NCBI RefSeq assembly: GCF_026151205.1
Contig: NC_087078.1
Location: 6,217,675 to 6,281,674, forward strand
Length of the DNA: 64,000 nucleotides
DNA from: Bolinopsis microptera
Taxonomy: Eukaryota > Ctenophora > Tentaculata > Lobata > Bolinopsidae
Direction: 5' to 3'
Positions within the stretch are counted from its first letter, which is position 1. Every line of letters begins with the position of its first letter. The translations under genes and the position numbers were made by a program. The notes below the pieces were generated by a model that saw only the letters and a list, made by a program, of their open reading frames with translations, was not told the DNA's origin and did not search any database. Positions 13,918-46,441 of the stretch are shown in pieces.

Positions 13918-14247
13918 TGAATAAACTCGTTATGCTTCATATCTCGGTCATCTGAGAAGCTACAGTTCTAATTCTTTCAGGACAAACGTAATTCGAATGG
14001 CCAAACACAATTCAATAACATTTAGCTTGATCCGAATATCCAAACTATCAAATAAATGTGAAAATGAACCTCCATTTGAAAAAAATGAACGCGAATATTT
14101 TTCGAGTTGACAAATTCCTCGAACCAGTGGTGGTACTAAGTCATACCAGGAGGAAGTATTTCAATTGGGCACTCAGTGACTGAGCTATTAAGGCCAACGT
14201 TTGCACACTGACTTTTGGCCCACCCTGTATATCCTACACTTACGTAG

Positions 14248-14490
14248 AAAGCTCAAAAATGTCGAGGCCAGCAATGTGGTAATAATAACGCTATAAATAC
14301 TGCAGTTCCCAACCTTGCTGAAACAATCCCTTCGACTGAACACAACTACGGCAATGTTGTTCTCCGAGTTACCTCACCCACCAATGGTCATCTCTACAAT
14401 AATGTCGTGCTACAAACTGAACCTGCTCTAGACGAATCAGCATACGATTACGTACGAATCGAGGATGTGGTGAGGCACAACATTAGATGA
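14248..14490 (+). CDS. orphan C-terminal exon with YxxV tyrosine motifs
   Basis: A frame opens after a stop at 14245-14247 and ends in TGA at 14488-14490. An acceptor AG lies just before or within its start. The product's last ~65 residues contain HNYGNVVLR, HLYNNVVLQ and AYDYVRIEDVV, three tyrosines each followed by V at +3. This is the same kind of cytoplasmic tail as in the two receptor genes immediately downstream on the same strand. No ectodomain or membrane helix is visible upstream, where a foldback repeat and the transposon region lie. It is therefore either the last exon of a gene with a long intron or the remnant of a family member cut by rearrangement. That it belongs to this family is inference from motif style and position. 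Confidence 0.55.
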   Translation, partial: KAQKCRGQQCGNNNAINTAVPNLAETIPSTEHNYGNVVLRVTSPTNGHLYNNVVLQTEPALDESAYDYVRIEDVVRHNIR

Positions 14491-15948
14491 ACCAAGATTT
14501 GGCAGAGTTGTGAGTCGTAATTATTCCTATGAACTGATTAAGGAATCTGACTGTTGTCAAATTCTAAACTTAAAGTATTATATTTTTATTATTGGTTTGA
14601 GTTATTGTTTGCTACAAACTTAACGAACTAAGGAACTTGGCGTGCTAAATATTTCAGTTGTTTTTCAATGTATGTTATTAATTATTGTTTTGATCTTATT
14701 TTCAAAATGTATTTTATGATTATCAGGTAACTTTTTCATAATACGAGTGAATTTGTTAACATATAAGACTATCCCATGTTCAGTACTTTCATTTGATGAT
14801 TCCGTTTATAAAATCGGATAACTGACACGTTTTTTGTATGTTTTATTCAATGCATGTTATTACTATTGACAATAGATAAGGAGTGGTTTGTATAGTGATT
14901 AAAACATTATTGATTGAATTCTCCAGCGTATTATTTTGTACAGCGCATTAGTTTAGATATTTTAACTAAATTTTGTGAATATATCGGCGACAGAACTACA
15001 AAAACTGTGTCAGAACTAGGACACTAAATTGTGACTTATGAGGCTCCGACCACCAATGGCTAATATAAACAGCCCCCCTCTCCTCCCCAATCCCCACTCC
15101 CCGTTCATACCCACTATCATACTTGTGGGTGGTCAAAAGAAATATGCAAGTTTGCAAAGATGATACGATAAATGCTGTTTGAGTAGACGACATCTTCCGC
15201 GTGAGAATAAGAAACCTGATATTCCGTTACAAGGAATCATAGAAATGGGAATTTGAACGTTTTTAGTATTAAGCTACGATATTCGTTAACGTTTGCGTCG
15301 ACTGTCACTTTTGTAATGGAGCTATCAGGCCTGACTGAGATATTTGTTTTTGTTTAATTATCTGAAGCTCTACTAAACATAAGGAAATATAAACTATTTA
15401 TTCTAATACTATGGGCCCTTCTCTATTTACAAGTCGGACATATGGTAACAAATTGTCAGTTTTAAGTTACACAACTTTCTGCTTTTGACTTAAGTCATGC
15501 ACTGCGATACGATAAAATAATGTTAAATAGGACCAAAATTAGAGTTTATAAACTCTAAAGGATAAATCCTTTAGTGAACATAAAACTTCTAACGAATGAT
15601 GAACAAAATATTAGGATAATCAAGTTTCTTTTCACAACAATGTATAACTATCCAAGTTTTACGAAATTGAAAATTATTGTATCTAAAGCAAAAAGTTTGA
15701 AGTTGAAAAGTGCTCCCAGCTCAGCATCATATTATTACCTGGATAGAACCATATTCTTAAATTTCACCCCGTGACAAAGAGAAACCTGATAGCACGACAT
15801 GAATGACACTGGAATCTACCGCTAACAACTGATGTATGCACAACAGCGAGCAACTGAATTATCTTATTCCTTTTGTAACTCTTGCGTTTTTCTCAATTGT
15901 AGGTTGATTCATGGATATTAGTTGAAGTATTGATGCTTTGTTGTGCGG
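14491..15948. other. intergenic region upstream of receptor gene 1
   Basis: AT-rich and without convincing coding sequence. It probably holds the 3' UTR of the orphan exon and the promoter of gene 1. No TATA or other motif was confidently placed. Confidence 0.4.
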
Positions 15949-18900
15949 ATGGTGGTGCTATTTCTGGTTTTACAGTTCTTACTTATGGTATGCTATAATT
16001 TCTCGTATTTTATCTTAAATTGAAATCTACAGATTTTCACAACAGATTTCCTTAAGCAAAAAGTTATCATTATATGATAACCGATTAAATAGTATAAATC
16101 TTTCTTTTTTTTAATCGATAAAACAGTTTATTCACAATTAATATTCTTTAAATTATAATTCACTTTCAGGAGGAACTTTGCTCTAGTGGGGTTGGTAAAA
16201 TCAAGTTTCTGAGATATGAGGACGAATCTGACTGTGGTGGCGTCTTTTCTGATACCTGTGACTTTTACTTCAAACCAATGAAGATTCAAGACGGTAACGG
16301 AAAAACTCTGAAGAACATAGCAGAAACTGACGCTACCGATGACGAAGCTAATGTTGATTTGACTACAGTCAGTCAGCTCAGCAGTCCAATTCAGATGAAT
16401 ATTCCGACAAATAGGACAGTTAAAATTGTTACAACTGTTTGGGATAGTGATACTAATCCTGACGATGAGATAAGAGAAATAACAGATTTCATGGTTCCTT
16501 TTAGCACTGTATCAGTTGGTGATGATTGGAAACAGGCAATAAAAACCAGCTCAAACCCATATATGAAATTTACTGTTCAATATAAACTTACACAGTGTAA
16601 TGGTCATTTTACCGGACTGGGATGCAACTTTTGTACATCCAACTACTTCTCCGAGCTGTGTAACAAGTACTGTAAACCTGTGCTTGGAAACTACACTTGT
16701 AATAATACAACTGGAGATAAAATATGCGTCAATAATAAAGCTGGACTGAACTGTGATCGATGTAAAGTTGGTTTTGTTGGAGCAGACTGTGATTCATGTG
16801 CCCTAAACTACTATCCTAATGGAACATGTAATGTTCTATGTGAGTCAGTTTCAGGACAGTACAATTGCACTGATCAAGGATCAAAAGTGTGTCTAGGAAA
16901 GTGGAAGGGTACTGACTGTAATTCATGTATCAATCATTATTATGGACCTTCTTGTTCCGATTTCTGCAACGAGACTGCCAAATACAAATGTGATGATTCA
17001 GGACACAAAGACTGTAAGGACAACTACTATCCACAGCAACAATGTGATGTGTTCTGTGAGCCAGTTTCAAGACAGTATAACTGCAGCGACCAAGGAACCA
17101 AAGTGTGTCTAGGACACTGGGATGGTACTGAATGTGATTCATGTATCAATCATTATTATGGAACAAATTGTTCAAAGTTATGCAACGAAACTTTGCAATA
17201 CACGTGTGATGGATCTGGAGACAAAGTTTGCAAGGACAACTTCTATCCAAAACAGCAATGTGATAAATCATGTGTTTCTGTAACATACATACATGTTACA
17301 TGGCGAGATCTCCATCCAAAAGGATTAGTCTGCGTCGACTGCGTCATTACTTTGTATTATACAACTTCGGCGGGTAACATTTCTCCATCCCTTTCGGTCT
17401 GCAGCTAATCTTCTCATACAATCAATCGAGAGTCCATTACGATCCAATCTCTGCTCAGCATCCTCAATGAATACATCATTTAAGCTCTTCCTAGGCCTGC
17501 CTCTTGATCTCTTCCCATGCTTGGGTTTCCATTCAAGTAAATAGTTGGGCAACCGATCTTCAGGCATTCTACTGACATGTCCAAACCAACGCAGCCGTTT
17601 TGTTGTTATTATGTCAGCAAGGGAAGTTATTGATGCCCTTCTTAAAACATCCTCATTACTTACTCGATGGAACCACCTCACTCTCAGGATTCTTCTTAAG
17701 CAGTACTGATGGAAAGACTCCAATCTTCTTGTCTGCACTTGAGTCGTGTTCCATATCTCACATCCATAGGTCAGAATGGTAAGAACAGCTGCGATGTAGA
17801 TTCGCACTTTGTTGTTAATGCTTATGTTCTTATTCTTCCAAATGTTGTTGAGTTGGTTAAAAGCTCCGGTTGCTTTTCCAATCCTGACACTTATTTCTTT
17901 ATCAATCTTGCCATCTGATGTAATTTTGGCACCCAAATAAGTGAATTGAGTGACCTGCTTTGCAGAGTTTCCATCGACAGTTATATCTATGGTCCTATTC
18001 TCTGGGAGTGGGTGCTGCGATGTATCTTTCCCAATGACCATGATCTCTGTTTTCTTTGCGTTCATCTTTAAACCCCCAAGTCCACAGTATTTCGCAATAT
18101 TGTCCGTAGTTTCTTGCAGTCCTTCAACAGTGTCATCCATTCCTGCGATGTCATCAGCATAGTCAAGATCAATGACACATTTTTCCGGTTGTCTGGAACT
18201 TTGTCTGTACTGAAGTGTAAAACCACGGGATATATTCTTAAACTTCTCTGCAAGTTCTAATCCCCAGTTAAGTACAAGATTAAAAATAGGGGGCCCTTGC
18301 ACATCACCTTGTCCAGTCCCCGAATCGACATCAAACCATCTTGTCAATTCTCCATTGACACGAACTGCACTTTCAGTTGCTCTAAAGAACGCTTTGAAAA
18401 CATTGATATATTTTGTCGTTAACTGTTTCTGTAACAGGAAAGTACAATTGCAGTGACAAAGGAGATAAAGTTTGTCTCGGACACTGGAATGGTACTGAAT
18501 GTGATTCATGCTCTCTCAATTACTTCGGACCAGATTGTTTCAAGTTCTGTAATGAGACTGCAAACTACACATGTGATGATTCAGGAGATAAAAAATGCAA
18601 GGACAACTTCTACCCAAATCAGCAGTGTGACACGTTCTGTAAGCCAAACCCCGGTTTCTACACCTGCAATTCTACGACTGGTGAGAAAATATGTGGGAAC
18701 AGAACAACTGGAAAACAATGTGACCAGTGTGTAGTGAATTACTATCCGCAAGGAAAATGTGATCTGTTCTGTCAGGCAAAAACAGGGAAATTCAACTGCA
18801 GCGACCAAGGAGATAAAGTTTGTCTAGGACACTGGAATGGTACTGAATGTGATTCATGTGCCTTGAATTACTTTGGAACAGATTGTTCAAAGTTCTGTGA

Positions 18901-20359
18901 CAATTCATCAGCGAGATACACATGCAATAAAACTGGAGACAGAGACTGCAGGGAATACTACTATCCAGCACAGCAGTGTGATAAGTTTTGTCTTGCTGAA
19001 CCTAGTAACTACTCGTGTGACAACGCTACAGGAGAGAAGATCTGCTATGGTAAGAAGGCTGGAGATAATTGTGAGCACTGTATCGATGATTACTACCCAG
19101 AGGGAGAATGCAATGTGCTCTGTGAGCCCGAGGAGGGTAATTACACTTGCAGTGATGATGGAGAGAAGCTATGTGTTAAAAACAGAGCTAGTCCAGACTG
19201 CACATCTTGCATAGAAAACTATTATGGGAAAACATGCACAAATTTCTGTAAGGAAACCACGAATTACAACTGCTCTGAAGATGGTAACAAGATATGTTTG
19301 AACTCCAAAGCACTAGCGGATAAAAACTGTGTAGCTCCTGATGATGGTGGACATAAAGAAAAGGTAAAAGACGCTGACAAAACTGCAATTATTGGAGGGG
19401 CTGGTGGAGGGGTCGTACTGGTCATTATCCTGGTACTTTTGGGGATTTTAGTGGCAGCCAGGAGGAGACAAAAGAATGGCAAAGGAGAATATTTAAAAGA
19501 TCATATTGAGCTGGTTGAAAATCCTTGTGCTCTATACTCAACTATTAATAAATCACCGGTCTATGCAACAGTAGATAAACGGCCTCTTTCACCAGCAGCG
19601 ACAGACGAGCAAGATGTTTATGATCGACTGGACAGATCTCGTAAATCTCTTAAAGCCAAACCACAGACCACCATACCGAGTGAATATACGGAGGAAGAGG
19701 AGGAGGAGGAGGAGGAAGAGGAGGAGGAAGAAAGGTATGCAGACGCCTCTATAATGGTAACAGTCGCCAAAAATCAGTTAAATTTTCCCGGAGTGAATGA
19801 ACAAGATGTTTATGCAAAGTTAGACAGAGGAGAAAAATCGGATAAATCCCAAAGAGAGCGACAAGATCGTGAGGAAGAAGAAAGATACGCAGATCATGTG
19901 ATTTCTGTACCAACAGATGAACAAGCTGTATACGCCAAGTTGGACAGAACAGCAAAAGAGGATAATACCCAAGCAGAGAGAGAAGATTTTGAGGAAGAAG
20001 ATAGGTATGCGGAACATTTCCCAGCAACAGACGAAGAAAATGTCTATTCCCGACTAGACAGGACCACCAAGCCTCACAATATCCATGATAACCAGGAGGA
20101 AGATGAAACCTATGCCGATATCACCATCACAACAGCAAATCATCAACCCGCAGATGAAGACCTAAATGTCTATGCTCAATTGAACAAAAGAAATGCCAGA
20201 AACTCGACAGCTCCCCCAGTGGAAGATGGTGAGATGTATGCTGATGTGGCGTTTGTGAAGAGCAGAGGGAAAGATGATCGCGTGATGTTTAGTAATCCTG
20301 GTGCTGAAGAAGAGTGTGGGGAAGAAGCTACTTACATTACAGTTACTGAATTAGTTTGA
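15949..20359 (+). CDS. receptor gene 1: C2/MNNL + 13 DSL-like modules + TM + multi-tyrosine tail, interrupted by a LINE
   Basis: Exon 1 (15949-15987) encodes a hydrophobic start, MVVLFLVLQFLLM, and ends at a GTATGC donor. Exon 2 starts at 16170 after cactttcag in the same phase. Its first ~135 residues resemble the Notch-ligand N-terminal (C2/MNNL) domain: CDFYFKP, then VWDSDTNPDDEI and GDDW, leading to a degenerate first DSL. About 13 tandem DSL-like modules follow (pattern YYGxxCSxFC...YTCxxSGDKxC). Then come a membrane helix near residues 701-726 (19384-19458) and a ~300-residue tail. The tail has five units, each with a VYxxL(D/N) motif and, about 20-40 acidic residues later, a YAD/YAE motif, plus YSTI, YATV and a terminal YITV. 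A poly-Glu run lies at 19692-19733. A LINE splits module 6. Without it the frame closes exactly (about 1025 residues). As drawn, the allele would truncate at 17408 inside the LINE. Function is inferred: a cell-surface receptor or ligand signalling through SH2 partners. Confidence 0.8.
15988..16169 (+). other. intron 1 of receptor gene 1
   Basis: Starts GTATGC and ends cactttcag. Phase 0 on both sides joins the signal-peptide exon to EELCSSG. Gene 2 has the same arrangement. Confidence 0.65.
17273..18436 (-). mobile_element. 5'-truncated LINE insertion with 13-bp TSD in receptor gene 1
   Basis: The sequence tgtttctgtaaca occurs at 17273-17285 and 18424-18436, bounding a 1138-bp insert. The insert lies on the minus strand, 3' end at the left, and its last bases form a short catg/tatg-type tail rather than poly-A. 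Removing the insert plus one duplication (1151 bp) restores an uninterrupted host frame. This is direct evidence of target-primed insertion into a coding exon. Confidence 0.9.
17325..18423 (-). CDS. LINE reverse transcriptase, C-terminal fragment
   Basis: Minus-strand open frame of about 365 residues belonging to the insert. It starts inside the reverse transcriptase (KYINVFKAFFRATESAV), so the element is 5'-truncated. Visible features are motif B-like SGTGQGDVQGPPIFN, the catalytic LDYADDIAGMDD, thumb-region LTILTYGCEIWN, and a C-terminal RWFGHVSRMP followed by RGRPRK. It is the same family as the LINE at 46.45 kb, judged by shared order and wording of these motifs. It lacks motif A and upstream domains, so it is not active. 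The intact frame suggests a recent insertion. Confidence 0.85.
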
Positions 20360-20520
20360 TTTAAGGAGTGTTTAAGTGGGTTTAAGTGCGTCGATGTTAA
20401 GTTATTTGTGGCATATTGTTATTAATATTTTCATCATATTACGAGTAGTTGGAAGTTATTGGATTTTTAAATCATGAATTTTTTTTTCTATTTACTATTG
20501 ATTATTGTCATTTTTACTAT

Positions 20521-20526
20521 AATAAA
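20521..20526 (+). promoter_or_regulatory. candidate polyadenylation signal of receptor gene 1
   Basis: AATAAA about 160 bases after the stop at 20359, in an AT-rich 3' region. The distance fits a normal 3' UTR. Confidence 0.5.
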
Positions 20527-21303
20527 AGTCAAGCATTGAGCATTCAAATTATTATTTTTTTACGAGTGTAGACTGTAGATTGAAAAAAAATTCATTTTGA
20601 TGTTGATTTTCACTACAAATTTCAGATTATGATTAGACAAGATGATTTGTTTCAATGCACTCAAATATTCACAGAATTACAAAGTGTGACATATTCAAAT
20701 CTCAGAAATTTATGAGAAGTACGGAGACGTAATTGGAAATGTTAATGGCAGAGTAAACCATCGATAATACTAATATAATAGTAATGATCAAAAAGTTGTC
20801 ATCTTACTTTGTGTAGTTTGGTAAGGGATTTAAAAACTGTAATGTGCACATTTTAACATTATCTCATCATGACATTCAGTCTGGAAATACTAACAAAACT
20901 CATCAGTATTATACCTTGTTTACTAATACTTTGATAGCCAAATATTAAAGCTACACTTTATAGAATTAACAAGTAATTTGAGAGTGAAATGCTTGTGTTG
21001 AGTACTGAGTTGTGTCTCCGTAGTAAGTTGTATTCTACCACGTCAATAAGTTGATACAGTAGCACGTCAATACCTCAATATGTTTAAGGAGTAGATCGAG
21101 CAGTTAAGAGGAAGTTCAAACTCCGACCAGGGTCAAGTTAATACTCACATCGTGTATACTCACTACTCAGTAATACATCCTTTTTTACATCGTGCTGGCA
21201 AATATTGTTTACCTCTTTCCACATTTGTAATGCCATTGAAGGCTTGTAGTTTTTGATGTACTCATTATGTCCTGACCGTTTGGTGGTAGCAGCAGGCAGA
21301 TAG
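20527..21303. other. intergenic region between the two receptor genes
   Basis: No coding sequence seen. It should contain the gene 1 terminator region and the gene 2 promoter, but I cannot place specific sites. Confidence 0.4.
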
Positions 21304-24300
21304 ATGAGGGCACTAGTATTCTTGGTAACGGCACAACTTCTTTTGGTAAGATTATTTAAGCCAGATTAGAATTTTATATATTTACTACTTTTACTATTTC
21401 TTTTGAACTTGTTTACGCTTATAATTCGTTAAGGCAATAGTGGAATATGCTCATCGGTTGAAAATAAGTACTTTCATCTATTATTTAATGATTGCATCTC
21501 AACTATGGTGTCTGTATAAACTACAAATACGAAGACTGAATAGCGTTTTCATCATTTAATTCTATTGCTATTCGAAACTCACTCACAGGCTGTGTGTTAC
21601 TGCAGTGGACAAGGTCAAGTGCAATTTCTGACTTACACAGATTCAAAATCTTGTGGAGCTTTGGAACGTGGGTGTGACTTCTACTTTAGAAACGACATCT
21701 GGGTCCCTACCCTCGCACAAGATTATTCTCAATTTTCTTGTTGTGTCCACAACTATACCGTTGATCAGAGTCACATCTGATGACTTCAGTGAAAGGGCTG
21801 ATGACTTCAGTGAAAGAGCTGGTGACCTAGTGAAAGTGCTGGTGACGATGAGAAAGACCATAAACCAGGGATTCCTTCGGGAGCATGTAAGATTATATCC
21901 AAAGTTTGTTCGCCAATGGGGTGTGTCTGGGTGTCAAAGATCTTCAAGGTGGGTGCTACTTGTGATGAACTCTAGAAGGATGGGATGGTAATACTCGGTC
22001 TGGCCGTCTGGAAGCCCATAGAATTCCAGTTCAGAAACCGAGTAAGGAGGTGCGGCTACTGATGAGAAGCCTCCTTAAAGTTTATTTGGGTTAGAAACGA
22101 CATCTGGGTCCCTACCCTCGCACAAGATTATTCTCAATTTTCTTGTTGTGTCCACAACTATACCGTTGATCAGAGTCACATCTGATGACTTCAGTGAAAG
22201 GGCTGATGACTTCAGTGAAAGAGCTTGTGACCTAGTGAAAGTGCTGGTGACGATGAGAAAGACCATAAACCAGGGATTCCTTCGGGAGCATGTAAGATTA
22301 TATCCAAAGTTTGTTCGCCAATGGGGTGTGTCTGGGTGTCAAAGATCTTCAAGGTGGGTGCTACTTGTGATGAACTCTAGAAGGATGGGATGGTAATACT
22401 CGGTCTGGCCGTCTGGAAGCCCATAGAATTCCAGTTCAGAAACCGAGTAAGGAGGTGCGGCTACTGATGAGAAGCCTCCTTAAAGTTTATTTGGGTTAGA
22501 AACGACATCTGGGTCCCTACCCTCGCACAAGATTATTCTCAATTTTCTTGTTGTGTCCACAACTATACCGTTGATCAGAGTCACATCTGATGACTTCAGT
22601 GAAAGGGCTGATGACTTCAGTGAAAGAGCTGGTGACCTAGTGAAAGTGCTGGTGACGATGAGAAAGACCATAAACCAGGGATTCCTTCGGGAGCATGTAA
22701 GATTATATCCAAAGTTTGTTCGCCAATGGGGTGTGTCTGGGTGTCAAAGATCTTCAAGGTGGGTGCTACTTGTGATGAACTCTAGAAGGATGGGATGGTA
22801 ATACTCGGTCTGGCCGTCTGGAAGCCCATAGAATTCCAGTTCAGAAACCGAGTAAGGAGGTGCGGCTACTGATGAGAAGCCTCCTTAAAGTTTATTTGGG
22901 TTAGAAACGACATCTGGGTCCCTACCCTCGCACAAGATTATTCTCAATTTTCTTGTTGTGTCCACAACTAAACCTATTGAATTTTACAATACGGAGGGTA
23001 ATATACTCAATACAATTGCTCGAACTGAGGACACAGCGAACAGTGCAACAGTTCATTTCAGCACAGTGGATGGCTTGAGAGATCCGATTGATTTAATGAT
23101 TCCTACAAATAATGATATTATTTTTTCAATATCTGTGTATGATGAAGATATAATAAACAACGATGATTTCATAAGAACAATGAGTGATTTGACGGTACCA
23201 TTTTCCAATGTTACGAAACGTTCCGGTTGGATTGAAGAGACTTACACAACTACAAAATATAACAGAGGAACAAAAACCGCAACTCTCACTATCCAATATA
23301 GACTAGTAAGCTGTGATGAGTACTTCACTGGGCTAGGATGTAATTCTTGTGAGACAAACTATTACGGAAAGGATTGTTCCAATTTTTGCTCCCAAAATGC
23401 AAACTACACGTGCGATGAATCAGGAGACAAAGACTGTAGGAACCACTTCTACCCAGACGAGATATGTGACACTTACTGTGAACCAGTGGAAGGAAACTAC
23501 TCGTGTGACAACGCTACAGGAGAGAAGATCTGCTATGGTAAGAAGGCTGGAGAAGACTGTGAATACTGTGTTGAGAATAACTTCCCAGAAGGAGAATGCA
23601 ATGTGTTCTGCTCACCAGAAATGGGGAAATACGACTGCAAACCGTCCGGAGAAAGGAATTGCCAGGGAAATTGGGATGGTTCTTATTGTGAAAGTTGTAA
23701 GATTAACTACTACAAAGTGGATTGTTCTAAGTTCTGTAATGAAACTTCAACAAACTACACATGTGATGGATCAGGAGACAAGGAGTGCAGGGACCACTTC
23801 TACCCACAAGGGATATGTGACACATACTGTAAACCAGTGGAAGGAAACTACTCGTGTGACAACGCTACAGGAGAGAAGATCTGCTATGGTAAGAAGGCTG
23901 GAAAAGACTGCGAAGACTGTGCTGAGCATCACTACCCAGAAGGAGAATGCAATGTGCTCTGTGAGCCGGAGGAAGGGAATTACACTTGCAGTGATAAGGG
24001 AGTAAAGCAGTGTGTTGGGAACAGAACTGGATCAAATTGTGAGCAATGCCTCGCTGATCACTTTGGAAAAAATTGCTCCAAGTTGTGTAACGACACTTCA
24101 GCTAACTTCACGTGCGATACATCAGGAGACAAGGAGTGCAGGAACCACTTCTACCCTCAAGAGATATGTGACAGTTACTGTAAACCAGAACCAGGTAACT
24201 ACACCTGTAACATTACTACCGGAGACAAAATATGTGAGAAGGGGAAATCAGGAGACGCTTGCGATGAGTGTAAAAACGAAAAGATAGGACAGAGTTGTGA

Positions 24301-26125
24301 TCAATGCAAGAGTTACTTTGATGGATACGACTGTGCTGTATGTGCCACACATTATTACCCAGAAGGTAAGTGTAATGTGCACTGTGAACCAGTTCCTGGA
24401 AACTACCAGTGTAATCACACCACAGGAGCGAGGATATGCCAAGAAGGAAAGACTGGAGGTGACTGTGATCAATGCAAATCCATTAACTGCTCTACTATTC
24501 ACAAGGATGAAAAAACAGACGATTCAAAAACCAAGAAAAATATGAATATCGCCATAATCGCTGGAGCAACAGCTGGTGCAGGACTACTCTTTTTATTTTT
24601 CTGCATAATCGGGCTCTTCTTATTGAAACATTGCAAGCAAAGTAAAGGCAATGCACGAGAAAATGTGGAAGATGTGGCAGATGAATATGTTGATGCTGGC
24701 GGGGAATATGAAACTCATCTTGGGAGCAATGAGATCTGCTTTAATGGAGAAGAGGTCGTCTACTCAACACTAAATATCCTTAATGTTAATGCAACTGAGA
24801 ATGCTGAAGACGCAGGATATGCTGATGACACTGTAATTCTACTTGAACCGCTCCATGCTGCCAGCTCAAACCACGATGAAGAGGAACAGTCAGCAGAAAA
24901 GGGAGTCCAAATCCAAGTTCATGAAGACGCTCAAACGTATGATCTTAACTCGTCAATCAACGGACAATCAAACTCAACGGGCCTTCAATCCAACTATACC
25001 GAAGAAGAAAAAGAGGAAATCTATTCTCACCTCAGCCATCTTGAAGATCACTCAAAAAATGACACAAGAAGCTCATTTGGATTATTTGGTACCAATCGTG
25101 ACTTCAAAATGAAGATCACTGATGTGGGCAAGGAGTATGCAGACACGCTCTTATTGAATACTAATACAATAACACAACTGACTGAGGAACCATCTGAGGA
25201 TGATCAGCTTGTTTATTCAACCATAAACAAAGAGCTCCTTCCAGTTAACCAAGAAAGGAATGTTGAAGATACAGGTGTGTACAATGCAATTAGCAAATAC
25301 CCCACCCAGTTGGCTGAAGGAAATGCACCCGGTATTCATCCACATATTGATACTGGTGAGAAGAATCAAAGCACTCCGACAAAGATAAATCAATCTGCTT
25401 CTCATCTGATTAATAAGATCTGCTTTAATGGTGAAGAGGTTGCCTATTCAGCACTGAATAACCTTCTTAATATAACTGAGAATACTGTAGAGCCGGAATA
25501 TGCTGATTTCTTCATAGAGCCAATAGAAGCTTACTTAAATCACGATCAATTGGAACAGTCAGCACTTTCCAATAGACTCCAAATCGGACATCATGAAGAA
25601 ACTGCAGTGTATAATCTTAACGCAACAATCAACGAAGAATCCTCATACTCGACAGACAGCCAATCCGAGTTTCCAGAAAAGGAGAAAGAGGAAGTTTATT
25701 CTCACCTCAGCCATCTTCAAAATTACTCAGGAAACGAGGAGAAAAAGACATACGGAACATCTGGCAACAATCGTGACTTCAAAATGAAGATCACTGATGT
25801 GGGCAAGGAGTATGCAGACACGCTCTTATTGAATACTAATACAATAACACAAATGACTGAAGAACCATCTGAGGATGATCAGCTTGTTTATTCAACCATA
25901 AACAAAGAGCTCCTTCCAGTTAACCAAGAAAGGAATGTTGAAGATACAGGTGTGTACAATACAATTAGCAAATACCCCACTCAGTTGGCTGAAAACACGT
26001 CCGGTGTTTATGCTCGACTAGACCGGCCAGGAGGATCAAATCAACATATCTCCACCACTAAGGGGGAGATTCTTTATCAGGATGTTATTTCACTTCAAAC
26101 ATCGGTGCCGACATTAGATAAGTGA
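21304..26125 (+). CDS. receptor gene 2: C2/MNNL + 9 DSL-like modules + TM + ~500-residue tyrosine-motif tail; N-terminal part disrupted
   Basis: Exon 1 (21304-21345) encodes MRALVFLVTAQLLL and ends at GTAAGA. Exon 2 starts at 21589 after actcacag in phase 0 with AVCYCSG and reaches CDFYFRN, matching CDFYFKP of gene 1. Here a 405-bp unit is present three times plus a partial copy. The frame resumes near 22958 at TKPIEF, equivalent to gene 1's KPMKI. The two halves are out of frame by one base even if the repeats collapse to one copy, so either an intron lies here (weak donor GTCCCT near 21706, acceptor cacaag near 22936) or the allele is broken. After the C2-like domain come nine DSL-like modules in three groups of three, a membrane helix (24541-24630) and a tail with about 15 motifs such as VVYSTL, EIYSHL, LVYSTI, GVYNAI and GVYARLDR. 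VVYSTL and LVYSTI fit the ITIM consensus. The ligand is unknown. Confidence 0.75.
21346..21588 (+). other. intron 1 of receptor gene 2
   Basis: GTAAGA donor and actcacag acceptor, phase 0, at the same position in the protein as intron 1 of gene 1. Confidence 0.7.
21686..22970 (+). repeat. 405-bp tandem triplication inside receptor gene 2
   Basis: Three nearly identical 405-bp units start at 21686, 22091 and 22496 and are followed by a partial fourth copy of about 70 bases ending at 22970. Copy 2 shows one visible difference (gagcttgtgac against gagctggtgac). Each unit holds an 82-codon open frame, a strong donor-like caag|gtgggt and a possible short intron (gtaata... to ...gggttag). The partial copy shows that about 339 bp lies between copies of a ~66-bp flank, which fits an insertion amplified by unequal exchange, or an assembly error. 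Confidence 0.9.
25092..25993 (+). repeat. 676-bp-period duplication within the gene 2 tail
   Basis: Positions 25092-25317 and 25768-25993 are nearly identical (a handful of substitutions in 226 bp). The sequences before each copy (from about 24727 and 25411) are alignable but diverged. The tail is thus two ~225-residue signalling cassettes, each with the same ordered series of about seven tyrosine motifs. Confidence 0.85.
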
Positions 26126-27600
26126 GCATTATATTTACATATTATGTACAACTAGAAACTTGGGAATTGAACGTTTAAAGTAGTGGACCAGCCTGATATT
26201 CACTGTGAACACTCAACATTGAAGTAATTATTTTAATATTTTTGGTATAAAGGTAATCGTAATCCAAATGGTAAAACTTCAAATATTACCATGTTTAGAC
26301 CTGGTATTTGTTTAATCTTGCAGAAATTGGCTTTGTTTTTTAAACTGATGATTATGTATCTATTGCTCTTGTAAGAACTAATTTCTTGGCTATCAAATAT
26401 TTATATTTATGGAAGGTCATGCAAAGTTAAGAAGATTATCAATACCTTCTGTACCTTGTACAATTATCGCGGAATTTTTTTAACCTAGAACATGTTTGTT
26501 AATTTTAACATTAATTTACTTTTCAATATGAGCAAAAAGTATCGGGGCAAAAAGCTCAGGATGGCCGACTCTTAATTTCGAACCACGGTCATGACCTCAG
26601 ACGCACCCGACTACGGTGAATTGGCACAATGAGTTTGTAGTCACACAGCTTCAGTAGTTTCTGGAGCTGCATTTTTGGAAATCTTTAAGTTTATTTTTAT
26701 GTACGACTGTATTAATCATAATTGAAATTCAGTAAAACCCTGGTTTACCGTGTCCTGTCTACCAACAAATCTGTTCGACTAAATCCGACAGTACTTACAT
26801 ATTTGAGAATTCTCAATCCCGCAATGCTCTAGGATCCAGTCTTCAGATATTTCATCAAGGTATTTGCATTCCATCCCGGATACTGGAGACATTAATTTTG
26901 CAGATGGTTAAAAACTTCGAATAAATTTTCAATCTGGCATTTGATTACCCCTTTTGATAAATAATTAAACAGTAATTTATTAGAATGTATGATACAAAAT
27001 GTAACCAATGATAAGGTATGCATAATTTAATTTCTTTAATATGATCAATTGTTTTTGAATAGTTAGATCAATTAGCTTGAACTTTCAATCGGAATTTATT
27101 GCTTTATTATCTTGATGCAACTACCTACATGTCACAGATGTTATTTTAGTAGAGAAAATTAGAGTTGAAAGCATGGTAAATTTGAAAGCGACCAGTTATA
27201 AATTATTGTGTCCTGAAACCCCCTTGCCCAGATCTCCCGAAATACCCTAATTTTATGTACCCTAAGATTAAAGTAAGAAACATGTTTCATAGAATTTTCG
27301 GTTGATGAAAGACAGAAGAATGGACTTGAATCGTGATCATCATGATCAGGACATAACAACGTGATGTTTGAATAAAATTTCTTGGTAGAACAGCTACAGC
27401 TTTTCAAATAGAGTCTTTTATAACTTCATTGTTTCTCTTCTTACAAGCTACTGGTAGTGGGTCCGAATCCTCAAGCATCTCTAACACATTTGAGGGTTGT
27501 TGGTGGTTATCTATGGGCGCTGAACTGTTCGAGTGTTCGAAACATTAATAAGAATATCGACTAAAAATTTAAACAAATTCACAAATAAATGAAGGGTTAA
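26126..27600. other. intergenic region between receptor gene 2 and the GPCR exon
   Basis: 3' sequence of gene 2 and, from the right, of the GPCR gene (converging genes). An AATAAA at 26920-26925 is the first plus-strand signal noticed, but it is 800 bases from the stop. No other gene seen. Confidence 0.4.
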
Positions 27601-27623: not shown

Positions 27624-28111
27624 TCAAATAGTCAAGTTTCGCCTCAAGATCCTTGATTCCCGGGAGCAGGATAAATGTCCAACAAAGGAAGTCCCTCTAA
27701 ATCCTACTCCTACAGACGGCTGCCCATGCCCCTTTCGACCAAACTTAGTCAACAGCCAAAACTTAAACCCATTCATTCGAAAACAGTACATAATTGGGTT
27801 CAACATAGCATTCAACACAGTGAAATGAAGTCTGCTTAAAATCCACGCATATCCTGCTACATACAAGTTTAACACAGCATCAGAAGGACTAGTTCCCTCA
27901 ACGCCGTCATAGTAGTTGTTCAGACCGACAATGTCTTTGAGAACCACGACGAAAAAAGGAAGGTTACACAGGAGAAAAATCGTGGTGAAAATAGCAACTG
28001 TGACTGAAGCTTTCCTCTTTTCTTTGACTTTGTTTGCCCTTTTGGCTACCTTTAATTTGTCGTTTTTGTCGTGCATTTGCAATAACCGCATGTCTGTATC
28101 AGCCTTTGCAC
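27624..28111 (-). CDS. class A GPCR, last exon (TM6, TM7, C-terminal tail)
   Basis: Minus-strand exon of about 162 residues. In order it shows: a lysine/arginine-rich third intracellular loop (AKRANKVKEKRKAS); TM6 with the CNLP form of the CWxP motif in IFTTIFLLCNLPFFVVVL; an extracellular loop containing NNYYDG; TM7 ending in the canonical NPxxY as NPIMYCFR; and a basic tail of about 55 residues. The exon starts after tcctcaag on the minus strand. TM1-5 must lie further upstream on that strand, so beyond the 14-kb satellite that begins at once or on another contig. The rhodopsin-family call is firm from TM6/TM7. The ligand class cannot be told. Confidence 0.85.
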
Positions 28112-28115
28112 CTTG

Positions 28116-31100
28116 AGGATGAAAAATGGGGACAGAGATTGGGACATATGATTTTACAATTTTATTAGGGATTTTGACTTCCAGTACCCAATTTGGTTTC
28201 TTTTCATCATTCATTGACTGACTAATTGGTTTCTGGGCAGAATTTCATCTCATCTGTCAAAATTTTAGGGTTCAGAAAATTTCATATTTGAAAATGGGGA
28301 CAAGGACTTTTGATAATACAACGTTTCGTTTTGTTAAGCCTTCTGCTGTGGGCATCCTCGACCGTAATCAAACATGTCCAGCACCTCTATTCGTGTCTAT
28401 GCCACCTATAGTTGATTACTAATGGTTGCAGGTGAGAAATTCAGTCAAAACTGTTAAATTTTGGGTCCTGGAATTTCATCTTCAAAAATGAAAATGGACA
28501 GAGATTGGGACAATATGATTTTACAATTTTATCGGGCGATTTTTGACTTCCAGTACCCATTTGGTTTCATACCATCATCAATTGACTGACTAATTGGTTT
28601 TCTGGGCAAAAATTTAATCTCATCTGTCAAATTTGTGTTCGGATAATTTCTATTTGAAAATGGGCAAAGGATTTTGAAAATACAACTTTCGTTTTGTTAA
28701 GCTATCTGCTGTGGGCTTCCTCCGGACCGAAATCAAATTCAGCACCTCTATCGTTGTATATGCCACCTTTAGTTGGACTTACTAATTGGTTGCAGGTGAG
28801 AATTTCAGTCAAAACTGTAAAATTTTGTCCTGGAAATTTCATCTTCAAAAAACTGAAACATGGGGGACAAGAGATTGAGGACAATATGATTTTACAATTT
28901 TATCGGGATTTTGACTTCAGGACCCCATTTGGTGGCAACTCATCAATTGAACTGCCTAATTTGTTTCTGGGCAAAAATTTCCATCTCTTCTGTCTAATTT
29001 GTGTTCAGAAAATTTCATATTTGGATAATGGGACGGACTTTTGAAAATAACAACGTTTCGTTTTGTTAAGCTTTTGCTGTGGGCTTCCCTCCCGACCGAA
29101 ATCTCAAACTTTCCTGCACCTCTATCGTTTCATATGCCACCTATAGTTGACTACTACTTTGGTTGCAGGTGGAAATTCAGTCAAAACTGTAAAATTTGGT
29201 CCTGGAAAATTTCATCTTCAAATATGGATAATGGGGACAGAGATTTGGACAATATTGATTTTACAATTTTATTCGGGATTTTGAATTCAGTACCCCTATT
29301 TGGTTTCATACCATCATTCAATGTGACTGATCTAATTGGTTTCTGGGCTAAAAATTTCATCTCATCTTGTTCAAATTTGTGTTCGGAAAATTTCATATTT
29401 GAAAATGGGACAGACTTTTGTATATCACTTTTCGTTTTGTTAAGCTTTCTGCTGTGGGCTCCTCCGACCGAAATCAAACTTCCAGCACCTCTATGTGTCT
29501 TATGCCACCTATAGTGACTTCTAATTGGTTGCAGTGTGAGAAATTCAGTCAAAACTGTAAAATTTGGTCCTGGAAATTTTCATCTTCAAAAAACTGAAAA
29601 TGGGACAGAGATTGGGACGCAATATGATTTTACAATGTTATCGGGATTTGACTTCCTAGTACCCCAATTTGGTTTCATAACCTCATCCAAATTGACTGAC
29701 TAATTGGTTTTCTGGGCAAAAATTTCATATCTCAGTCAAATTTGCGTTCAGAAATTCATATTGGAAAAATGGGACAGGACTTTTGCAAATCAACGTTTCG
29801 TTTTGTTAAGCTTTCTGCTGTGGGCCTTCCCCGACCGAAATCAAAACTTCCAGGCACCTCTATCGTGTTCATACGCCACCTATAAGTTGACTACTAATGG
29901 TTGCAGGTGAGAAATTCAGTCAAAATACTGTATAAAAATTTTGGTCTTGGAAATTTCATCTTCAAATAACTGATATGGGACAGAGATTGGGAGACAATAT
30001 GTTTTTACAATTTTATTCGGGATTTTGCTTCCAGCACCCCAATTTGGTTTCATACATCATCAATTGACTGACTACATGGTTATGGGCAAAAATGTCATTA
30101 TTTGTCAATTGTGTTCAGAAAATTTCATATTTGAAAATGGGACAGGACTTTTGAGAATACAACTTTGCGTTTTGTTTAGCTTTCTGTGTGTGGGTTCCTC
30201 GACCGAAATCAAACTTCCAGCAACTCTATCGTTGTATATGCAACCTGTAGTTGACTTACTAATTGGTGGCAGGTGAGAAATTTCAGTCAAAAACTGTATA
30301 AAATTTCGGTCTGGAAATTTCATCTTCAAAAACCTGAAAATGGGGACAGAGATTGGACAACATGATTTTACAATTTTATTCGGGATTTTGACCTTCAGTA
30401 CCCCAATTTGGTTTCATACCATCAATCAAATGACTGGTACTAATGGTGTTTCTGGGCAAAAATTTCATCTAATCTGTCATATTTGTGTCAGAAAAAATTT
30501 CATATTTGAAACAGGGACAGACTTTTGAAAATACACTTTTCGTTTTGTTAGCTTTCTGCTGTGGGCTTTCCTCCGATCCGAACAAAATTCCAGCACTCTA
30601 TCGTGACTCAATATGCCCACCCTATAGGTGACTTACCTAATTGGTTGCAGGTGAGAAATTCAGTCAAAACTGTAAAAATTTTGGTCCTGGAATTTCATCT
30701 TCAAAAAAATGAAATGGGACAGAGATTGGGACATATGCTTTTACAATTTTAATTCGGATTTTGACTTCAGTACCCCAATTTTGGTTTCATTTACATCAAA
30801 TTGACTGACTAATTGGTTTGCTGGGCCAAAAAATTTCATCTAAATCTGTCATATTGTGTTCAGAAAATTTCATATTTGAAAAGTGACAGACTTGTGAAAA
30901 TAACAACTTTTCGTTTTGTTTAGCTTCTGCTGTGGGTTCTCCGACGAATAATCAAACTTCTGCACCTCTATCGTTGTCTATCCACCTGTAGTTGACTTTA
31001 CTAATGGTTGCAGGTGAGAAATTCAGTCAACTGTAAATTTCCCCCCCCGGTTCTGGAATTTTCATCTTCAAAAACTGAATGAAAATGGGACAGAGATTGG

Positions 31101-34100
31101 GGACACATGATTTTTACAATTTTATTCGGGATTTTGACTTCAGTACCCCAAATTTGGTTTCATACCAATCATCAATTGACTGACTAATTGGTTTCTGGGC
31201 AAAAAATTCTTTTATCTAATCTGTCAAATTTTGTGTTCAAAAAATTTCTTATTTGAAAATGGGGACAGACTTTTGAAACTACAACTTTTAGTTTTGTTTA
31301 GCTTCTGCTGTGGGCTTCTTCCGCCGAAATCAAACTTCAAGCACCTCGATCGTTTGTCAGTATGCCACCTATAGTTGAACTTACTAATTGGTTGAGGTGT
31401 GAAATTGCGTCAAAACTGTTTAATTTTGGTCCTGGAAATTTCATCTTCAAAAATACTGAAATGGTGACAGAGAGTGGGACAATATGATTTACAATTTTAT
31501 TCGGGATTTTACTTCCAGTACCCCAATTTGGGTTTCATACCATCATTCAATTGATGATAAGTTGGTTTCTGGGCAAAAAATTTTCTTCTAATCTGTCAAA
31601 TTGTGTTCAGAAATTTTCATATTTGAAAATGGACAGACTTTGAATCAAACTTTTCGTTTGTTTAGCTTTTGCTGTGGGCTTCCTCCGACCGAAAACAAAC
31701 TTCAGCACCTCTATCGTGTCATTTGCCACCCATTGTAGTTTTGACTACTAATTGGTTGCAGGGTGAGAAATTCAGTCAAATCTGTTATAAATTTCGTGTC
31801 TGGAAATTTTCATCTTCAAATATGAAAATGGGACAGAGATTTGGACAATATGTTTTTACAATTTTATTCGGGTTTTGACTTCCAGTACCACAATGTGGTT
31901 TAATTACCATCATCAAATGACTGACTTAATTGGTTTCTGGGCAAAATTTCATCTCTTCTGTCAAAATTTGTGTTCAGAAAATTTCTCTATTTGAAATGGG
32001 ACAGACCTTTTGAAAATACAACTTTTCGTTTTGTTAAGCTTTTGCTGTGGGCTTCCTCCGACCGAAATCAAACTTCCAGCACCTCTATCGTGTCATTATG
32101 CCACCGATAGTTGACTACTTAATTGGTTGCAGGTGAGAAATTCAGTCAAAACTGGTAAAATTTTGGTCCTGGAAATTTCATCTTCAAAAACTGAAAATGG
32201 GGGACCAGAGATTGGGACAATATGATTTACAATTTTATTCGGGGATTTTGACTTCCAGTACCCAATTTTGGTTTTCATACATCATCAATTGACTGACTAA
32301 GTGGGTTCTGGGCAAAAATTTCCATTAATCTGTCAAATTTGTGTCAGAATAACATTTCATATTTGAAAATGGGACAGACTTTTGAAAATACAACTTTTCG
32401 TTTTGTTTAGCGTTCTGCTGTGGCTTTCTCCGACCGAAAATCCAAAACTTCCAGCACCTCTATGTGTCTTTGCCCCTGTAGTTGACTTACTAATTCTGGT
32501 TGCAGGTGAGAAATCTAGGCAAAAACTGTAAAATATTTCGGTCATGGAAATTTCATCTTCAAAAAACTGAAAATGGGACAGAGATTTGGACATATGATTT
32601 TACTATTTTATTCTGGATTTTGACTTCCAGTTCCATTTTGGTTTCATACATCATCAATTGACTGACTAATTGGTTTCTGGGCAAAAATTCATCTCCATCT
32701 GTCATTTTGTGTTCAGAAAATTTCATATTTGGAAATGGACATGACTTTTGATAAATTACATACTCTTCGTTTTGTTTATGCTTTCTGCTGTGGGCGTCCT
32801 CCGACGAAATCAAACTTCCAGCACTCTATGTGTCATATGCCACTAGAGTTGACTTTCTAATTGGTTGCAGAGTGAGAATTCTGTCAACAAAAACTGTAAC
32901 TTTTGGTCTGGAATTTCATTTCAAAAACTGAAAAAGGGGCAGACAGAGATTGGGACAATATGATTTACATTTTTATCGGGATTTTGACTTCAGTTCCCCT
33001 ATTGTGTTTCATACCCGCATCAATTGATTGACTAATTGGTTTCTGGGCAAAGTATTTCATTCATCTGTCAAATTTGTGTTTCAGACAATTTATATTTGAA
33101 ATTGGGACAGACTTTTGAAAATACATACGTTTCGTTTGTTTAGCTTTCTGGCTGGGGCTTCCTCCGGACCGAAATCAAATTCCTGCCACCTCTAATCGAG
33201 TCATATTGCCACCTATAGATGACTTACTAATTGGTTGCAGGTGAGAAATTCAGACAAAAACTGTTACCAAATTTTGGTCCTGGAAATTTCATCTTCAAAA
33301 ATGGAAAATGGGACAGAGATTGTGAACAATATGATTTTACATTTTTATTCGGGGATTTTGACTTCAGCACCCCAATTTGGTTCTACATCTTCAATTGATG
33401 ACTAATGGGTTTCTGGGCAAAAATCTTTATCTAATCTGTCAAAATTAGTGTTCAGAAAATTTCATATTGAAATGGACAGACTTTTGAAAATACAACGTTT
33501 CGTTTTGGTTAGCTTTCTGCTGTGGGCTTCCTCCGACCGAAAATCCTCAACTTCCAGCACCTCTATCGTGTCATATGCCACCTGTTGTTGACGTACTAAT
33601 GTGGTTGCAGGTGAGAAATTCAGTCAAAACTGTTAAGAAATTTCGGTCCTGGAAATTTCATCTTCAAATAACTGAAAATGGGACAGAGATTGGGACAAAG
33701 GATTTTACAATTTTATTCGGGATTTTGATTCCAGTACCACCAATTTGGTTTCATACCTCATCAATTGACCGACTAATTGGTTTCTGGGCAAAAAATTTTC
33801 ATTAATCTGTCAAATTGTGTCAGAAAATTTCATATTTGTAAATGGGACAGACTTTTGAATAATACAACTTTTCGTTTTGTTTAGCTTTCGGCTGTGGGCT
33901 TCTCCGACACGAAATCAACTTCCAGACCTCTATCGTGGCATATTGGCCACCTGTAGTTGACTTACTAATGGTTGCAGGTGAGAATTCAGTCAAAACTGTA
34001 AATTTCGGTCCTGGAATTTCATCTTCAAAAACTGAAAATGGACAGAGATTTGGACAATATGATTTTACAAATTTTATTCGGGATTTTGACTTCCAGTACC

Positions 34101-37100
34101 CCAATTTGGTTTCATACCTCATCAATTGACTGACTAATTGGTTTCTGGGCAAAAATTCATCTCATTGTCAAATTTGGGTTCAGAAATTTTCATATTTGAA
34201 AATGGGACAGACTTTTGAAATTACAACTTTTCGTTGTGTAGCTTTCTGCTCGTGGGCTTCCTCGACGAAATCAAACTTCCAGCTCTCTCTATCGTGTTAA
34301 TATGGCCACCGATAGTTGACTTATTAATGGTTGGCAGGTGTGAAATTCAGTCAAAACTGTAAATTTTGGTCCTGGAATATTTCTCTGCAAATAACTGAAA
34401 ATGGGGGACGGAGATTGGGCAATATGATTTTACAATTTTATCGGGGATTTTGACGTCCAGTACCCCAATTTGGTTTCATACCTTCATCTTCTGACTGGAC
34501 TAATTGGGTTCTGGGCAAGATTTCATCTCATCTGTCAATTTGTGTTCAGAAAATTTCTATTTGAAAAATGGGAAGACTTGTGATTAGACAAACGTTTCTT
34601 TTGTTAGCTTTCTGCTGTGGGCTTTCCTCCGACCGAAATCAAATTCCAGACCTCTATCGTGTCATAGCACCGTTATTGTTGACTTACTATTGGTGGCAGG
34701 TGAGAAATTCAGTCAAAACTGTAATAATTTTGGTCTGGAAATTTCATCTTCAAAATTGAAAAATGGGACAGAGATTTTGGACAATACGATTTACAATTTA
34801 TTCGGGGATTTTTGCTTCCTGTACCCTAATTATGTTTCTTTCCATCTCAATTGATGACTAAATTGGGTTTTCTGGGCAAAAATTTCATCTCATCTGTCAA
34901 ATTTGTGTTCAGATAAATTTATATTTGAAATGGGACTGACTATTTGTAAATACAACTTGTCGTTTTGTTAAGCTTTCTGCTGTGGGTTTCGCTGCCTCGA
35001 CCGAACTCAAACTTCAGACAACCTTATCGTGTCATATGCCACCTGTATGTGGACTTATAATTGGTTGCAGCAGTGAGAAAGTCAGTCAAAACTGTAAAAT
35101 TTCGGTCGGGAAATTTCACTCTGCAAAACTGAAAATGGGACAGAGATTGGGGACTATTGTTTTACAATTTTATTCGGGATTTTGACTTCCAGTACCCCAA
35201 TTTGTTCATACCATCATCAATTGGACTGACTAAATGGTTTCTGGGCAAAAATTTCATCTATGTCTGTCAAATTTGTGTTTCAGAAATTTCATAATGTGAA
35301 AAATGGACTGACTTTTGGTAATATACAACTTTTCGTTTTGTTTAGAACTTTCTGCTGTGGCTTCTACTACAATACGACGAAATCAAACTTCCTGCACCTC
35401 TATAGTGTCTTATGCCACACAGTAGTTGATTAACTAATTGGTTTTGCCAGGTTGAGAGAATTCAGTCAAAAAACTGTAAAATTCGGGGTCCTGAAAATTT
35501 CACTTCAAAAATGATAAATGGGACAGAAGATTTGGACAATATGATTTGCACAATTTTATTCGGGATTTTGACTTCCAGTACCCCAATTTGGTTTTCATAC
35601 CATCATCAAGTGACTGGACTATTAACTTGGTTTTGGGCAAAAATATTCATCTCATCGTCCAAATTGTGTTCTGAAATTTTCATATTTGAAAATGGGGACC
35701 AGACTTTTGATAAATACAACTTTTCGTTTTGTTAAGCTTTCTCTGTGGGTTCCTCCGACCGAAAGCAAACTTCCAGCACCTCTATCGTGTCATATGCACC
35801 TTTTGTCGACTTACTAATTGGTTGTGCAGGTGAGATATTCAGTCATAAATGTAAAATTTTGGTCAGGAATTTCATCTTCAAAAACTGAAAATGGGACAGT
35901 GATTGGCGACAATATGATTTTTACTAATTTTATTCGGGATTGTGACTTCATACCCCTAATTTGGTTTCATACCATCATCAATTGGCTGACTAAATTGGTT
36001 TTGGGCAAGTATTTCATCTCATCTGTCAAATTTGTGTTCAGAAAAATTTCTTATTTGCAAATGGGACAGAACTTTTGAAAATACATCGTTTCGTTTGTTA
36101 GCTTTCTGCGTGGGCTTCCTCCGACCGAAATCAAACTTCCAAGCCCTCTATCGTGTCTTATTGCCTCCTATAGTTGACTTACAATGGTTGCAGGTGAGTA
36201 TTTCAGTCAAATACTGTAATATTTTGGTCCATGGAAATTTCATCTTCAAAAACTGAAATGGGACAGAGATTGATTGGGACAAATTCGATTTTCCAATTTT
36301 ATTCCCCCCCCGGATTTTTTTGACTTCCAGTACCCTATTTGGTTCATACCATCATCATGGACTGACTAAATTGGTTTCTGGGCAAAAATTTAATCTCATC
36401 TGACAATTGTGTTCAGAAAAAATTTCATATTTGAAAAAATGGGACGACTTTTGGAATATTCAACTTTTCGTTTTGTTAAAGCTTCTGCTGTGGGCTTCTC
36501 CGACCGAAATCAAACTTTCAGCACCTCTTTCGGGTCTTATGCACCTATAGTTGACTTTACCTAATTGGTGGCAGGTGAGGAAATTCAGTCAAAACTTAAA
36601 ATTTTGTCCTGGATATTTCATCTTCAAAAACTGAAAATGGGACTGAGATTGGGACATATGTTTTTACAATTTTATTCGGATTTTGACTTCCTGACCCCCA
36701 AGTTGGTTTCATGCTCTTCATCAATGTGACTGACTAATTGGTTTCTGGGCAAAAATTTCATCTCATCTGTAAAGTTGTGTTCAAGATAAATTTCATATTT
36801 GAAAATGGGAAGACTGTTGGAAATTACAACTTTTCGTTTTGTTTAGCTTTATGCTGTGGGCTTCCTCGACCGAAATCAAACTGCAGCACCTCTATCGTGT
36901 CTTATGCCCCTGTAGTTGACTTACTAATTGGTTCAGGTGTGAAGTCAGGTCAAAACTGTAAAATTTCGGTCTGGGAAAAATTGATTTCAAAAACTGAATA
37001 TGGTGGTCTGAGATTTGGAAAATTGATTTTACAATTTTATTCGGGATGTTGACTTCCAGTACCCCAATTTGGTTTCATACCATCATCAATTGACTGCACT

Positions 37101-46336: not shown

Positions 46337-46441
46337 CCGGAGTAACAGAACTCAGAGCGCCCCAGACTGGGGCCCAGAGGATCATCGACTCTCTTATTAA
46401 ATTACAGATATATTATTTCAACTCTTTGTTTAATTGTCTGC

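Follow-up and report, generated by a model that had tools for sequence, protein, structure and literature searches.

Candidate recognition receptors with DSL arrays and tyrosine-motif tails in a gene cluster of the ctenophore Bolinopsis microptera

The Notch ligands, Delta and Serrate/Jagged, are textbook developmental signals: type-I membrane proteins in which a C2 domain is followed by one DSL domain and EGF repeats. The disulphides of their DSL domain are sequential (I-II, III-IV and V-VI), and the III-IV loop, of 11 residues in the form PRxDxxGHxxC, belongs to the contact with Notch. A different kind of system is typified by Hydractinia Alr, Botryllus fester and mammalian KIR, which are clustered paralogous receptors with a faster-evolving ectodomain tip and a tail bearing tyrosine motifs, namely immunoreceptor tyrosine-based inhibitory or activation motifs (ITIM/ITAM). 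The engulfment receptors Draper, CED-1 and MEGF10, in turn, are defined by an EMI domain and EGF repeats. Here we describe a gene family of the ctenophore Bolinopsis microptera that shares features with the first two of these systems. It was found in a stretch of 64,000 nucleotides (RefSeq assembly GCF_026151205.1, contig NC_087078.1, positions 6,217,675 to 6,281,674 of the forward strand), the whole of which we call the window, where the region at 14.2-26.1 kb holds two tandem plus-strand members (genes 1 and 2) and the remnant of a third.

In cnidarian genomes, Gazave et al. (2009; PMC2770060) reported genes made of only 1-11 DSL repeats, together with one having an MNLL domain plus 3 DSL domains, and left open whether these multi-DSL genes are real. 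Compared by description only, those of Nematostella resemble the present family in their repeated DSL domains and in the member with MNLL plus 3 DSL domains, and the portion of that account available to us makes no mention of a membrane helix, a tail or clustering (PMC2770060). The suspicion voiced in 2009, that multi-DSL genes are misassemblies, is made less likely by the family described here. In the available part of a review (PMC4810162), Capsaspora is credited with a Delta-like receptor tyrosine kinase with two DSL domains, which likewise joins several DSL domains to tyrosine signalling; it has a kinase domain, whereas Pfam found no kinase match in 13 proteins of our family (three from the window and ten paralogues, hereafter the 13 proteins). 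That text also states that Mnemiopsis is without the diagnostic domains of Delta and that Pleurobrachia has a Delta. A literature search for 'DSL domain' together with 'allorecognition' returned solely an article on Botrylloides, which calls a tunicate DSL ligand rapidly evolving and, in the part available, describes no such receptor family (PMC5882950). Queries combining DSL with ITIM, allorecognition or tandem DSL yielded no recognised description of a family of this kind, subscription papers lying mostly outside their scope. An earlier note on this DNA, made from the letters alone, had known of no described family with this make-up; no full match was recognised in the literature searched, and the cnidarian genes and the Capsaspora kinase call for a caveat to that statement.

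We give about an even chance to the reading that these proteins are fast-evolving recognition receptors, probably signalling or internalising via their tyrosine motifs. DSL identity, a C2-like tip, clustering, tyrosine-motif tails and a faster tip are all expected of such receptors. An immune or allorecognition role is plausible, and we propose more tentatively that they form an undescribed class of such receptors, in which the head of a Notch ligand would have turned into a C2 tip that varies and the DSL domain into a fused-loop stalk, combined with tyrosine tails and segment exchange by gene conversion. The C2 tip would contact a ligand that varies, either on a microbe or on another cell, with the DSL rod acting as a stalk that would no longer fit Notch in the usual manner; the tail might be phosphorylated by kinases of the Src-family type or read by AP-2, and could then recruit SH2 proteins or drive uptake, while the receptor itself would evolve through duplication, gene conversion and loss. 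If true, some 35 loci re-using the head and DSL parts in proteins that resemble signalling receptors would be a case of a developmental ligand co-opted for recognition, and would furnish a testable candidate gene set for the immune or self-recognition system of this animal. The family is like Alr, fester and KIR in clustering, paralogy, faster-evolving tip and tyrosine-motif tail, and differs from them in an ectodomain without Ig or Sushi Pfam match in the 13 proteins and in its motifs, which are YxxΦ and YAD, with the strict ITIM being rare. Unlike Draper, CED-1 and MEGF10, the 13 proteins have neither an EMI nor a standard EGF match in Pfam. With the Notch ligands they share a DSL region preceded by a domain that is C2-like, and the type-I membrane topology, their PDB matches being Jagged and DLL chains, but they have many fused DSL modules in place of one DSL domain with EGF repeats, no Pfam MNNL match, a long tyrosine-rich tail, and few-exon genes in clusters.

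Ectodomain: the DSL array and the C2-like tip

Genes were read from stop-to-stop frames and their translations. A full member of the family is predicted to have a short candidate signal-peptide exon, followed by a large frame with a C2-like tip, a fused DSL rod, one membrane helix and a YxxΦ-rich tail. In the window, each of the two genes has a candidate signal-peptide exon of 13-14 residues, then a phase-0 intron and an exon with C2-like domain, DSL array, helix and tail. That of gene 1, MVVLFLVLQFLLM, lies at 15949..15987 (+), ends in a phase-0 GT donor and has comparable exons upstream of paralogues; that of gene 2, MRALVFLVTAQLLL, at 21304..21345 (+), recurs as a near-identical exon in its uninterrupted paralogue. 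Such a candidate was present upstream in 12 of the 13 members checked versus 48 of 200 random 900-bp stretches of the window passed through the same filter; any single case could be chance, and the set as a whole, judged by these counts, is not.

The earlier note had described a long array of DSL-like modules, and this is borne out by Pfam DSL (PF01414), which matches gene 1 at 1.9e-26 in its first part (16599..17285, +; 5 modules by cysteine pattern) and at 6.2e-34 in the remainder (18437..19354, +; 7 modules), and gene 2 at 7.7e-21 (23312..24493, +; 9 modules), where Tandem Repeats Finder (TRF) gives a higher-order period of 351 bp. This profile scored above cut-off in all three window proteins and all ten paralogues scanned. 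Counting modules by a regular expression on their first five cysteines, we obtained 2-15 per frame in 21 frames. Of the 137 modules in these frames, a set that includes the window pieces along with their close paralogues, 135 have a III-IV loop of 7 or 8 residues; the remaining two have loops of 9 and 11. Two single-DSL exons of this genome were examined and both have 11, so that the family loops fall 3-4 residues short. On the assumption that the sequential disulphides of Notch ligands apply, the array can be read as a series of alternating loops: a YYG-type module continues directly into a YYP-type one, and adjoining DSL modules share a loop, the last of one being the first of its successor. 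A structure model of the DSL array from four window stretches had a mean predicted local distance difference test score (pLDDT) of only 36.5; the disulphide pattern is therefore deduced from cysteine spacing and from what is known of Notch ligands.

Laminin-EGF, which the earlier note had named as a possible better match for the modules, was rejected, with gene 1 scoring 0.18 against EGF_laminin versus 1.9e-26 against DSL. Weighing against the DSL assignment, a laminin-EGF match does pass the cut-off, at E 1.2e-5, in one of the 13 proteins, a paralogue on contig C3, and another of them has one at E 0.00064, below cut-off. In a sequence search of PDB, the first piece of gene 1 was closest to Jagged-1 (E 0.008), followed by a laminin fragment (E 0.011); the second piece gave a galectin construct first (E 0.0044, with no stretch passing alone) and Jagged-2 second (E 0.11); gene 2 alone gave no relative, its sole row being unrelated (E 0.78); and a two-row profile recovered Jagged-1 at E 0.04. 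A genome-wide Pfam DSL search, in which 150 of 214 candidates were scored, returned at least 72 matches, among them separate single-DSL exons such as C3:8854857, with canonical spacing, and C3:3446152 and C3:3452122, each followed by sequence that appears sushi-like by eye. The last two fall at C3:3444500-3453500 (L033), where two neighbouring genes have a DSL of canonical spacing and then the sushi-like sequence, at least one having a membrane helix further on; this is a second uncommon arrangement around a DSL domain.

The C2-like domain occupies 16170..16598 (+) in gene 1; in gene 2 it starts at 21589..21688 (+), as aligned with the paralogue, and its remainder, aligned with gene 1, lies at 22969..23311 (+). 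Foldseek with the N-terminal model of gene 1 placed Notch ligands in the first ten PDB rows (best E 1.4e-5) and in 20 of the 26 rows at E<=0.001, although the model is weak (mean pLDDT 42.5, with ten-residue means of 37 to 76 over residues 1-150) and similar scores go to C2 domains of other proteins. A profile built from 12 N-termini of the family had Notch ligands in its first seven PDB rows (best E 0.0025), mainly via the DSL part, and the C2 part alone gave no significant match. Pfam MNNL (PF07657) had no match in the three window proteins (P0001-P0003), the ten paralogues or 16 C2 domains. Of the C2/MNNL-like N-terminus put forward by the earlier note, the C2-like part is supported, with the reserve due to a weak model, and the MNNL part is not.

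Comparison of seven paralogue pairs gave ratios of nonsynonymous to synonymous divergence (dN/dS) of 0.69-1.01 for C2 and 0.39-0.65 for the remainder, C2 being higher in all seven; three of the pairs come from one gene trio and two involve window copies. The bootstrap fractions were 0.005, 0.017, 0.021, 0.055, 0.057, 0.149 and 0.270, that is below 0.05 in three of seven. These values support a C2 tip evolving faster than the remainder; because its dN/dS does not clearly exceed 1, positive selection is unproven.

Tyrosine-motif tails and rival explanations

Genes 1 and 2 each have a single hydrophobic helix, at 19388..19459 (+; hydropathy maximum 2.92) and 24554..24625 (+; 2.48), as the earlier note had stated, and its cytoplasmic tails of 300-500 residues with many tyrosine motifs are likewise present. 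Tail 1 (19460..20359, +, stop codon included) has 299 residues with 15 tyrosines, 4 YAD and 10 YxxΦ, the last against 2.0 expected (p<0.0002). Tail 2 (24626..26125, +, stop codon included) has 499 residues with 25 tyrosines, 4 YAD and 10 YxxΦ against 4.7 expected (p 0.0074). Across 12 tails of the family, which include close paralogues and are thus not 12 independent cases, YxxΦ exceeds 3000 shuffles at p<0.01 in nine, the exceptions being C7:1.724, C12:9.971 and C12:9.975. The strict ITIM ([ILVS]xYxxΦ), of which the earlier note had seen some matches, occurs five times in tail 2 (1.28 expected, p 0.0064) and three times in the paralogue of gene 2, but is missing from tail 1 and all other tails, so that it holds for 2 of 12 tails and is not the prevailing motif. 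ITAM spacing, YxxL/I-x(6-12)-YxxL/I, was found in none of the 12. Gene-1-type tails on contigs C7 and C2 have in common the blocks YSTI-x5-YATV, TYADV/I and ATYITV/I, while the intervening tail sequence differs. Among 18 large frames examined, ten include a membrane helix and eight lack one, two of the latter having a helix exon downstream. In at least one case, that of C7:6596809, helix and tail occupy a frame of their own further downstream.

The tail of gene 2 contains an internal duplication (24734-25315 / 25418-25993, +) of mosaic divergence: synonymous divergence (dS) is 0.53 for one half but 0.04 for the other, as though conversion had been recent. The diverged half has an identity of 60/115 and keeps four of five tyrosines; we dropped this conservation as evidence, it being too weak.

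YxxΦ is also the sorting motif read by AP-2, and the enrichment of YxxΦ in the 12 tails, with ITIM rare and ITAM absent, would also suit scavenger receptors, endocytic or phagocytic, that behave like Draper/MEGF10, with an ectodomain that binds debris or microbes and tails that carry sorting or engulfment signals. We regard this as somewhat unlikely, since ten YxxΦ in one tail is more than endocytosis needs, and the YAD and ATYITV motifs are also common to paralogues, although neither point is decisive. The same tyrosine blocks, held in common by the C7 and C2 paralogues while the sequence between them differs, make it highly doubtful that the proteins are homophilic adhesion molecules without signalling, their tails serving as disordered acidic cytoplasmic anchors, even though a DxD loop in the C2 tip of 13 of 16 members, a long rod and an excess of N-glycosylation sequons in the ectodomain pieces would fit such a function. 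The C2-DSL likeness to Notch ligands could also mean modulators of Notch signalling, that is Delta-derived decoy or cis-inhibitory ligands with tails regulating trafficking; the number and clustering of the genes speak against it, as does the III-IV loop, short in nearly all modules and of full length in the two single-DSL exons looked at, and we hold it to be quite improbable.

Extent of the family and the interrupted copies in the window

The genome searched for relatives comprised 264,652,675 bases in 232 contigs, of which C1-C13 are each 15.2-26.2 Mb, summing to ~258 of 264.7 Mb, and C14, C15, C16 and C20 are each at most 198 kb. With gene 2 as query there were 93 exon-level matches; grouped by strand, allowing gaps of 1.5 or 2 kb, they form 35 loci, 17 of them on C7, and allowing 2.5 kb 33 loci. 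The loci include fragments, and stops interrupt some of the matches. By these matches this is a clustered family of ~35 loci, in keeping with the clustered family that the earlier note had described. Relatives were not found in viral and prokaryote contig collections, and scans gave nothing over cut-off in NCBIfam and nothing at gathering score in Rfam; a STING-domain search had no match, its controls included, and so carries no weight.

Synonymous divergence is uneven along paralogue pairs: between C7:1.719 and C7:1.710 dS is 0.022 in DSL and 0.112 in C2, and between C7:1.710 and C7:1.715 it is 0.504 in DSL. This unevenness suggests gene conversion between family members. The three are tandem paralogues at C7:1710629-1720874 (L009, L010 and L016), and their synonymous divergence differs greatly among C2, array and tail, a pattern suggestive of segment exchange.

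The earlier note had taken genes 1 and 2 as complete-length, but neither is uninterrupted in the present assembly. Gene 1 is interrupted by an insert of 1138 bp (17286..18423) with an antisense (-) reverse-transcriptase frame of the long interspersed nuclear element (LINE) type (RVT_1 5.6e-9), flanked by a 13-bp target-site duplication (17273-17285 and 18424-18436). In gene 2 the interruption consists of 1280 bp (21689..22968, +) of a 405-bp tandem repeat in ~3.2 copies, delimited by repeat finding and paralogue alignment; 1280 is not a multiple of 3 and the frame is shifted. Window positions 15413-27540 align at 83-98% identity to an inverted segment ~215 kb off, C7:6452042-6462096, from which both inserts are missing. 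The uninterrupted members there, at C7:6453542-6456829 and C7:6458065-6461373, have frames open through tip, array, helix and tail: one of 1096 residues has 92% identity to gene 2, and the other, of 1103 residues, matches gene 1. Upstream of both there is a candidate signal-peptide exon. By this alignment, the window lies in an inverted segmental duplication, within a copy that carries three family members.

The window copies are probably, though not certainly, pseudogenes or null alleles. That they are still functional, either because the inserts are spliced out or on a different haplotype, is a question apart from the role of the family, and one on which we consider a positive answer unlikely. 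In its favour, the frames stay open outside the inserts, with a non-C2 dN/dS of ~0.4 versus the paralogues, and an enumeration of GT-AG donor and acceptor pairs gave frame-keeping pairs, for instance in gene 1 (donor 17374, inside the insert, and acceptor 18438) and in gene 2 (donor 21668, acceptor 22905), whose donors score 6 and 7 of 9, equal to or above the 6 of 9 of the genes' own first introns. Against it, these scores come from a simple count of consensus positions, the frame is shifted by the 405-bp array, and both pairs would alter the proteins, leaving ~30 insert-derived residues in gene 1, while gene 2 would lose C2 residues around CDFYF and have repeat DNA read as protein.

The third gene, the tail of which the earlier note had recognised, is represented by a remnant of a membrane-helix end and short tail at 14226..14490 (+), and 14226-15041 matches C7:6466847-6466059 at 94.6% in DNA. 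The remnant begins inside its membrane helix, and its tail is an 80-residue open reading frame (14248-14487) with 4 YxxΦ; the peptide is 100% identical in the copy at C7:6466586-6466825, close to another family exon, and has 40% identity (E 5e-12) with a portion of the helix-and-tail exon C7:6598219 of another member. Helix and tail are in different frames in the window and in the C7 copy alike, whereas in the relative at C7:6598219 they lie within a single open frame; the change of frame may reflect a frameshift or a very short intron.

Neighbouring features of the window

Downstream of gene 2, a minus-strand frame at 27624-28244 ends in a GPCR (G-protein-coupled receptor)-like TM6-TM7 segment (7tm_1 E 8.5e-6, under cut-off). 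Inside it starts an array at 28123-42282, of a 372-bp unit in ~38 copies with 81% matches. Further on, long reverse-transcriptase frames occur at 46346-47932 (+; RVT_1 4.5e-26) and 48291-50660 (-; RVT_1 4.9e-18), of the same element type as the insert in gene 1.

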